Source of the DNA: Ruegeria faecimaris
Lineage (GTDB): Bacteria; Pseudomonadota; Alphaproteobacteria; Rhodobacterales; Rhodobacteraceae
Length of the DNA: 64,000 nucleotides
Assembly: GCF_900182615.1 (NCBI RefSeq)
Contig: NZ_FXTE01000001.1
Span: 248,001 to 312,000 of the forward strand
Direction of reading: 5' to 3'
Shown here: positions 6,898 through 55,521 of the stretch, piece after piece
Numbering within the stretch: position 1 is the first letter of the stretch
Layout: the number at the start of each line of letters is the position of its first letter
Translations under genes and position numbers: made by a program
The notes under the pieces: generated by a model
What the model saw: only the letters and a program-made list of their open reading frames with translations
Database searches by the model: none
Told to the model about the DNA's origin: nothing

Positions 6898-7016
6898 GGG
6901 GGCTCTGCCCCCGCCGCCCTTCGGGCGACTCCCCCGAGGTATTTTTGGCCAGATGAAGCAGGGGATCCAATCTTCATCTGGCTCTAAATACCTCGGAGCG
7001 CGAGGCAGAGCCTCGC
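6898..7016. repeat. Paired inverted composite repeats (hairpin + 25-bp core), bidirectional terminator
   Basis: Between convergent lpdA and the M20 gene lie two facing copies of a composite element. The left copy has hairpins GGGGGC-TCT-GCCCCC (6898-6912) and CGCCC-TTC-GGGCG (about 6915-6927), then the core from CCGAGGTATTTTTGG to CCAGATGAAG (6934-6958). The right copy is a reverse-complement core (6972-6996) followed by hairpin GCGAGGC-AGA-GCCTCGC (7000-7016). The two cores can pair with each other around a 13-nt loop. The same core recurs near 38.5, 45.9 and 55.3-55.5 kb. Confidence 0.85.
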
Positions 7017-38421: not shown

Positions 38422-38445
38422 AAAGGGGGCCAGCTGGCCCCCTTT
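38422..38445 (+). terminator. Terminator of the TRAP operon
   Basis: A perfect 24-bp palindrome, AAAGGGGGCCAG/CTGGCCCCCTTT, lies 23 bp beyond dctM and is followed by TGCTTTGTT. The GC-rich stem and T-rich tail fit an intrinsic terminator; the symmetry may let it work both ways. Confidence 0.88.
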
Positions 38446-38462: not shown

Positions 38463-38526
38463 AAGGGGCCAGCCCCTTCTTGGCCTGTGGCCAATTCAGC
38501 CCCGAGGTATTTTGGGCCAGATGAAG
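38463..38526. repeat. Composite intergenic repeat, single copy
   Basis: Two hairpins, AAGGGGC-CA-GCCCCTT (38463-38478) and TTGGCC-TGT-GGCCAA (38480-38494), are followed by the 25-bp core (38502-38526, CCGAGGTATTTTGGG to CCAGATGAAG, one base different from the 6.9-kb copy). It sits between convergent dctM and the VOC gene, 7 bp from the latter's stop. Confidence 0.8.
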
Positions 38527-45858: not shown

Positions 45859-45871
45859 GCGCGATCCCTGT

Positions 45872-45920
45872 TTCATCTGGCCAAAAATACCTCGGAGAGC
45901 GCGAGAGGCTGGCCTCTCGC
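45872..45920. repeat. Composite intergenic repeat, single copy, reversed
   Basis: A reverse-complement core (45872-45895, TTCATCTGG to ACCTCGG) is followed by the hairpin GCGAGAGGC-TG-GCCTCTCGC (45901-45920). It fills the gap between the convergent PIN and M48 genes and probably acts as terminator. The hairpin sequence differs from that at 7000-7016, but pairing is kept. Confidence 0.82.
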
Positions 45921-55317: not shown

Positions 55318-55521
55318 GCGAGGCGCTGCCTCGCGCTCCGAGGTATTTTTGGCCAGATGAAGAAACGGACCGTTAACCAGAATCTCCGAAAATCAGCTGG
55401 CGGTACAGGCGGAGGCGCCGATGACCGCGCCAGGTGAAGCTCTCCGGTCTAGAAATCGGAGAGCGGATCCCTGCTTCATCTGGCTAGAAATAAATTGGAG
55501 GTGTGGGGGTGAAACCCCCAC
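55318..55521. repeat. Paired inverted composite repeats between xthA and the Fe-S carrier gene
   Basis: The left unit has hairpin GCGAGGC-GCT-GCCTCGC (55318-55334) followed by the core (55338-55362, identical to the 6934-6958 copy). The right unit has a degraded reverse core (55474-55498) and then hairpin GTGGGGGT-GAA-ACCCCCAC (55503-55521). Between them lies a further stem GCTCTCCG/CGGAGAGC (55439-55464). The layout mirrors 6898-7016, but with a 111-bp instead of 13-bp spacer. Unlike the other copies it lies between two genes of the same strand. Confidence 0.8.

Follow-up and report, generated by a model that had tools for sequence, protein, structure and literature searches.

The closest described systems to the element reported here are intergenic hairpin repeats, DNA uptake sequences and intrinsic terminators. 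GTAG-tagged REP, BIME and REPIN repeats, as portrayed in the sections of PMC2817692 and PMC3116915 that deal with them, are short intergenic hairpin repeats with RAYT partners, which form head-to-head pairs, reach tens to hundreds of copies and fall into lineage-specific families; part of PMC2817692 describes the coevolution of REPs and RAYTs. A CGTC-tagged group of REPs belongs to the Alphaproteobacteria, and the portions of PMC3733652 that define it report mostly head-to-head pairs, no known dedicated transposase, stems of 8-9 bp almost always with A-T at the first two positions, a CGTC tag and mostly a CCA tail. The available main text of that paper names none of Rhodobacter, Ruegeria, Paracoccus and Roseobacter, and the word Rhodobacter is absent from the available main texts of PMC2267715, PMC12306157 and PMC3116915. 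The DNA uptake sequences (DUS) of Neisseriaceae, according to the relevant passages of PMC3630211 and PMC3868556, have a word that is spelled uniformly within a genome and varies as dialects from species to species, form inverted pairs at terminators and have a cognate receptor (ComP). Intrinsic terminators place a GC hairpin before a short T stretch at 3' ends.

The element described here was found in a 64 kb window, the whole stretch of Ruegeria faecimaris DNA that was analysed, and resembles each of these systems in part. It shares the intergenic hairpins, pairing, copy numbers and lineage-specific families of the GTAG-tagged repeats, but no RAYT was found in 19 element-bearing genomes and no constant GTAG head was seen by eye, and the element sets a variable hairpin beside a conserved bipartite word and differs in dialect in place. 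Like the CGTC-tagged REPs it is alphaproteobacterial, mostly pairs head to head and has no dedicated transposase known, whereas its stems are varied, many of them GC-only, and its bipartite core is conserved, a distinction drawn from the published text description. Compared with DUS, it has far fewer copies, is almost only intergenic, carries separate hairpins and is bipartite with a free 3-nt spacer. Unlike intrinsic terminators, it usually keeps its longest hairpin at least 7 nt from the T stretch, has a conserved word downstream and occurs in both orientations. No earlier description of the element was found among what were mostly the best-ranked matches in the open-licence PMC literature.

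Results

A hairpin and a bipartite core

The element consists, in this order, of a single or double GC-rich hairpin, a short linker rich in C and a bipartite core, GRRR-TATTT-NNN-GC(C/A)AGA(T/A)GAAG, in which three freely varying bases (NNN) separate a half made of a 4-mer and TATTT from an 11-mer. In the source genome the core reads GAGG-TATTT-NNN-GCCAGATGAAG, often with GGATC a few bases downstream. A first-pass annotation of the window had proposed six copies of a 25-bp core, and the element is present at all six places, on both strands (Table 1); a 15-mer searched at up to two mismatches gave four matches in the window, whereas 100 shuffles averaged 0.12 and never reached four. The copies are real, but the unbroken 25-bp core has to give way to two halves around three free bases. 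Only the cores at 6934 and 55338 are letter-perfect over 25 bases, those at 38502 and 45871 each differ at one base and that at 6972 at three, and the first half of the 55474 copy is degenerate (CCAATTTATTTCTAG). The hairpins lie on the same side of the core in each window copy, and no copy overlaps a gene predicted by a codon-based gene caller, both as the annotation had stated. The 6934 and 6972 cores make up an inverted pair separated by 13 bp, and the gene upstream of the 6934 core is one that we take to be lpd. Just upstream of the 38502 element, at 38422-38445, there is a separate strong terminator-like hairpin with a T-rich tail (AAAGGGGGCCAGCTGGCCCCCTTT), so both kinds of hairpin occur at that gene end.

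Table 1. Features of the element in the window, numbered from the first letter of the window
Feature	Position	Strand	Remarks
First hairpin of 6934 copy (GGGGGC TCT GCCCCC)	6898..6912	+	Read in sequence
Second hairpin of 6934 copy (CGCCC TTC GGGCG)	6915..6927	+	Second-hairpin stems covary across 47 copies
Core, left member of inverted pair	6934..6958	+	Downstream of pyridine nucleotide-disulphide oxidoreductase gene
13-bp spacer of inverted pair	6959..6971	strandless	Contains GGATCC; 34-bp start-to-start spacing common to four inverted pairs of the source genome
Core, right member of inverted pair	6972..6996	-	NNN = AGA
Hairpin of 6972 copy (GCGAGGC/GCCTCGC)	7000..7016	-	Directly past M20 peptidase gene stop
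Two hairpins of 38502 copy	38463..38494	+	38463-38478 and 38480-38494
Core	38502..38526	+	Between convergent DctM-family and glyoxalase-family genes
Core	45871..45895	-	Between convergent PIN-domain and M48 peptidase genes
Hairpin of 45871 copy (GCGAGAGG/CCTCTCGC)	45901..45920	-	
Hairpin of 55338 copy (GCGAGGC/GCCTCGC)	55318..55334	+	
Core, left member of widely spaced inverted pair	55338..55362	+	
Core, right member of widely spaced inverted pair	55474..55498	-	Degenerate first half
Hairpin of 55474 copy (GTGGGGGT/ACCCCCAC)	55503..55521	-	Directly past Fe-S_biosyn-family gene stop

Distribution in the Rhodobacteraceae

Many Rhodobacteraceae carry dozens of copies of this short gene-end element, and some more than 100. 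Genome-wide, the source genome holds 29 copies at up to two mismatches of the 18 fixed bases, with none for a reversed-pattern control, and 34 copies at up to three mismatches, with two for the reversed pattern; relatives hold between 0 and 166 copies per genome, the maximum being the 166 matched in G110. Six copies in 64 kb, where about 0.45 would be expected from 29 in 4.1 Mb, are a local excess that represents only four independent sites. Between 6934 and 55498 the window thus contains a local cluster, with six of the 29 copies within about 49 kb.

Across the family, at least one match at up to two mismatches was found in 62 of 149 genomes, the reversed control giving two matches overall. 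Sampling across the class covered 385 genomes, including five of the family; more than one match occurred only in the source genome (20) and in one family member (6), while six other genomes had one match each, alongside two control matches. The other pattern-matched holders are Rhodobacteraceae, for example Ruegeria and Roseovarius, and many of the gaps occupied in the source genome are common to them. The hairpin-side half alone (GACTCCCCCNNNNTATTT) was found in 52 of the 149 family genomes. Some of these have few 11-mers of the source-genome type or none at all, an example being G128, where this half occurs 79 times. Two Paracoccus megaplasmids (L316, L319) carry the same type of two-hairpin cassette with GGGATATTT/GGGGTATTT but differ greatly in the 3' half. 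The element may also be present in some phage or prophage contigs, judging by their sequence: of 24 viral stretches with pattern matches, four (L201, L209, L210, L220) have a GC hairpin upstream by regular expression, L201 and L210 having one flank in common, and the other 20 matches are chance-like, many of them in AT-rich DNA.

Position relative to genes

The element sits between genes, mostly at their 3' ends and rarely between divergent genes. With genes predicted by a simple codon-based gene caller, 27 of the 29 copies in the source genome are intergenic and two overlap a predicted gene end. The 116 public contig stretches hold 130 copies: 120 lie between genes, three overlap a gene and seven fall in predicted ORFs, two of the seven being hairpin-less matches in Bacteroidales and Gammaproteobacteria MAGs. 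Leaving out these seven rows, the orientation count covers 152 copies, of which 30 are paired, and 112 of the 122 singles have a gene on both sides: 45 are convergent, 39 tandem in sense, 21 tandem in reverse and seven divergent. In 35 of the 45 convergent singles, no more than 15 nt lie between the end of the core and the stop of the facing gene (three overlap that stop by 14), and in 15 of the 21 reversed tandem singles the core lies 2-9 nt from a stop.

The first-pass annotation had called the repeats REP/BIME-like, a description supported by this arrangement at gene 3' ends, and had asked after enrichment in convergent gaps. Gaps of 60-600 bp that hold an element are convergent in 56, tandem in 85 and divergent in seven cases, against 35, 253 and 107 for gaps that do not, although these counts are not independent, as loci were chosen for holding a copy and orthologues were included. 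In tandem gaps, sense exceeds reverse orientation by 39 to 21 (p 0.027, orthologues not collapsed), a bias that also fits an RNA-level role.

Neighbouring copies less than 150 bp apart in the named relatives have facing cores in 11 of 11 cases, 10 of them at 33-35 bp start to start and the eleventh at 143; in the source genome four of five pairs are spaced at 34 bp and one at 132. Two other arrangements were seen, an outward pair 109 bp apart in G006 (G006:C33:93349-93477) and two direct-tandem copies about 100 bp apart in G018 (L310). In two genera, elements of differing dialect adjoin the same two genes, which by eye encode DMSO-reductase-like subunits (L464 in G043, L468 in G006).

Hairpins that change sequence and keep pairing

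A perfect stem of at least 6 bp within 75 bases on the 4-mer side of the core was found for 25 of 29 copies in the source genome, 31 of 32 in its congener G043, 113 of 123 in the named relatives and 26 of 31 from five further genomes, compared with 4, 4, 15 and 7 after shuffling and 6, 13, 33 and 8 on the opposite side of the core. The copies of the source genome are thus neither detached from hairpins nor scattered at random into genes, none of the 29 lying inside one, which agrees with the first-pass annotation. Among the two-hairpin copies, 47 of 54 were long enough to test, and in 83% of these the second stem has 6-7 of its 7 positions paired (orthologues not collapsed). When the arms of the second hairpin are swapped between copies, such pairing is reached in only 27%, and the pairing copies comprise 25 different second stems. 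This covariation indicates that the hairpin structure is kept while its sequence changes. Together with a core that is kept while NNN drifts, it bears out the annotation's proposal that structure is selected on one half of the element and sequence on the other.

At some orthologous gaps (e.g. L041/L163, L143/L263, L107/L272) the hairpin type is swapped while the core stays; such exchange of hairpin cassettes means that recombination between copies happens and could add to homogenisation. By eye, the hairpins are not those of described REP classes: no constant GTAG or GTGG head was seen beside the hairpin, and the letters GTGG are confined to the stem of a single hairpin type; GGGGGC, GCGAGGC and similar stems lack the features of CGTC-tagged REPs, though the AAGGGG type begins with A-T pairs; and the letters CGTC do occur in the two-hairpin type, but within the second stem.

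Dialects of the core

The spelling of the core is nearly uniform within a genome's copy family and can differ even between close species; these dialects, the free NNN and the switch at orthologous gaps are new beyond the first-pass annotation. In G110, 100 of the 100 listed copies (of 166 matched) read AGTATTTNNNGCAAGATGAA, and among degenerate-pattern matches G116 (31/31), G027 (43/44) and G003 (37/38) each have one spelling of their own; for several genomes the dialect was read from one to three copies. The source genome has GG before TATTT in 23 of 29 copies and GA in five, and G043 has A as the second base of GNTATTT in 49 of 50 copies at up to one mismatch.

Between these two genomes, 13 orthologous gaps with 16 copies could be compared by blastn (about 75-83% identity), 12 of them spanned by one alignment and the remaining one (L036/L280) aligned on one flank only. 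Orthologous copies agree at 15-16 of 16 for the fixed core positions except two bases of the 4-mer, the second of which agrees in one of 16 and the fourth in three of 16, the copy of the source genome already having A in all three. Agreement at NNN is 9, 5 and 7 of 16. The agreement at fixed positions is partly built in, as both orthologues were mostly found by the core pattern (up to two mismatches), and that pattern misses decayed copies, some of which exist (L048, L049). From the source genome to G043, GAGG becomes GGGA in nine copies, and the AAGG/AAGA subfamily becomes AGGA in three of four copies and AGGT in one, with the first base kept. The lpd gap, which was found by protein instead of core, has the dialect switch in both arms of its inverted pair. 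When the 30 best lpd matches from 149 genomes are compared, three of them (G000, G043, G072) hold the element by pattern; a degenerate copy is visible in the lpd gap of G138, and several others have a hairpin and a T run by eye.

Some genomes hold more than one family. Two are present in each of G006 and G065, and in G065 the spellings of the 5' and 3' halves are linked in 11 of 11 copies. The stretches read in G128 combine GGAG with GGAATAATGAA in five copies (one with a change) and GGGA with CCCAAAGA in five, and G110 has, beyond its main family, GGGG with ACCAGAAAGAAG in four copies and GGGA with GCAAGAGGAAG in two and one more; 4-mer and 11-mer are linked in 10 of 10 and 6 of 6 stretches read in these two genomes. 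Where a genome has two or three such families with linked halves, the pattern points to more than a single factor or to separate acquisition of the families. Mixed spellings were seen in G052, G065, G011 and G006, G070 has one discordant pair, and such genomes are also compatible with horizontally acquired families. The 3' half varies widely between genomes in the stretches found by the hairpin-side half. The dialects were also mapped on an LpdA tree whose bootstrap had yet to stabilise and in which only three of the 23 inner branches have good support. On this tree the 5' half would have changed at least 12 times over 23 genomes and the 3' half at least 12 times over 22, and it adds little beyond the well-supported pairs G000/G043 (99/90) and G116/G011 (100/99).

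Comparison of orthologous gaps, which the first-pass annotation had proposed, revealed not only the in-place 4-mer difference at the 13 shared gaps but also apparently empty sites. One gap holds the element in L042, L101, L126 and L267 and lacks it in L100, and another holds it in L117 and lacks it in L099. Overall, 401 gap comparisons hold the element and 13 were listed as empty, a ratio biased by the choice of loci for holding copies; five of the 13 are false (three L049, two L048, with a degenerate core), four for L100 and one for L099 look real, and three are ambiguous.

Discussion

We propose that this is a REP-like gene-end element of Rhodobacteraceae that joins a structural hairpin half to a core serving as the putative binding site of a dedicated trans-acting factor, a reading for which we consider the case evenly poised. 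The hairpin half would act through RNA (or single-strand) structure, probably by ending or protecting transcripts, and the bipartite core would be bound by a factor that is most likely a protein on double-stranded DNA. Core spelling would be particular to the lineage and, in some genomes, to each of two to three co-resident families, and when the specificity of the recogniser shifts, the copies would follow in place by point mutation under selection. Two observations lead to this proposal. Gene conversion as the homogeniser is disfavoured, since NNN lies inside the homogenised core and conversion across it should have made NNN uniform, yet NNN drifts, although hairpin cassettes do get exchanged; we therefore infer trans-acting recognisers whose specificity shifts between species. 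That the element occurs in either orientation at gene ends speaks for a factor that recognises double-stranded DNA. Binding of the core by a protein, suggested in the first-pass annotation, would accordingly best fit the dialect data. Our working picture is a polar roadblock or insulator combined with a transcript-ending hairpin; a terminator or insulator role is plausible and unproven.

Much of the arrangement recalls a mobile repeat. A REP/REPIN-type element spread by a non-Y1 mobilising enzyme, with the core as its recognition site and the dialects as enzyme-element families like those of RAYT/REP pairs, would fit the range of 0-166 copies per genome, the head-to-head pairs with near-fixed spacing of 33-35 bp, the co-resident families and the gaps that are empty in L100 and L099. 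Against it, recent copying would carry NNN along, whereas NNN varies widely while the core is fixed, and the dialect difference appears at shared sites, not at new ones. No Y1 transposase (PF01797) was found in any of 19 element-bearing genomes, the source genome among them, so the element is not a classical REP/RAYT system and the RAYT-like process envisaged in the first-pass annotation is not supported; PF01797 was present in one of 15 genomes without an element match and in five of 14 control genomes. In 12 of 13 retrieved stretches between closely spaced copies, gene-called and read by eye, we saw only ordinary-looking genes, with no transposase and no identified recogniser gene, and on balance we regard spread by a non-Y1 enzyme as unlikely. 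Dialects between species, inverted pairs and an association with terminators are also described for DUS in part of PMC3630211, but a signal of that type, homogenised by biased recombination, is scarcely credible here: 1543 to over 3400 copies per genome are quoted for DUS, whereas the element has 29 in the source genome and at most 166 among the genomes counted, shuns coding sequence (27 of 29 copies intergenic, the other two at predicted gene ends) and has a separate hairpin attached. The free NNN by itself is not decisive on this point, as a receptor might not read it.

Two further readings are an intrinsic terminator and a 3'-UTR signal. An ordinary intrinsic terminator, with TATTTTT as its U-tract and the conserved tail incidental, accords with terminator-scan calls at 6919-6939 and 55327-55345 on the plus strand and 45906-45890 on the minus strand, and with 54 of 94 sense 3' ends scoring as T-run terminators (11% when shuffled). 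It is nevertheless very improbable, as it leaves the 11-mer and its dialects unexplained. The gap from the end of the longest stem to GxTATTT is 7-12 nt in 15 of 25 copies of the source genome and 14-31 nt in the other 10; pairing of the 4-mer in front of TATTT (P over 0.5) is seen in 29% of 21 AGG copies of the source genome and 57% of 28 GGA copies of G043, with 0-67% across all groups; a G or C often directly follows TATTT in relatives; and counts of terminator-like signals in two window stretches are near those of shuffles (21 vs 19.8; 28 vs 20.4). Replacement of terminators by the element was considered on the basis of separate hairpin and T-run terminators at convergent 3' ends, which number 7 of 48 in sense (core T run masked) and 6 of 47 in reverse, against 32 of 81 without an element (p 0.003 and 0.001); with gene families collapsed these become 6 of 35 and 6 of 34 against 22 of 69 (p 0.16 each), leaving a trend only. 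Tandem gaps show no such difference at sense ends, where separate terminators number 8 of 42 (core T run masked) against 49 of 260 without an element, and they have 1 of 23 at reverse ends. A 3'-UTR signal, with the transcribed core bound by an RNA-binding protein or pairing with a small RNA, would account for the preference for sense orientation in tandem gaps and for hairpins that begin shortly past the stop codon in many sense cases; it is quite improbable, as 21 of the 60 tandem singles are reversed, 15 of them with the core within a few bases of a stop, and RNA would there carry the complement. Rfam gave no match at the gathering threshold over the window, and near 6934 one chance-level match (E 0.77, far below the gathering score), a result that does not count against a new RNA family.

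Two other interpretations of the sequence were set aside. A coding reading of the spacer (GTA TTT NNN GCC AGA TGA) fails, since NNN can be TGA (L030) and other dialects lack the stop; a terminator/antiterminator switch between GCGAGG/CCTCGC and CCTCG/CGAGG, suggested by copies of the source genome, fails as well, since the congener has CCGGGA there and the second pairing is lost.

In its boldest form, the proposal of a gene-end element read by a trans-acting factor becomes a sequence-addressed gene-end system, in which a hairpin cassette would be combined with a bipartite barcode, a fast-evolving recogniser would be matched to it in up to three barcode-recogniser pairs per genome, and dozens of sites would rewrite the same two bases in place upon a change of recogniser. 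We advance this form tentatively and regard it as somewhat doubtful. The pattern nonetheless looks as if something in each cell reads the spelling of the core. Dispersed sites that differ together between congeners, while the three bases in their middle drift, amount to a natural experiment in recogniser-target coevolution. With them the old question of what REP-like repeats do becomes testable, as DNA matched to a dialect could serve to capture the recogniser, whose change in specificity could then be traced by species, and the element would help to annotate gene ends across a large bacterial family.
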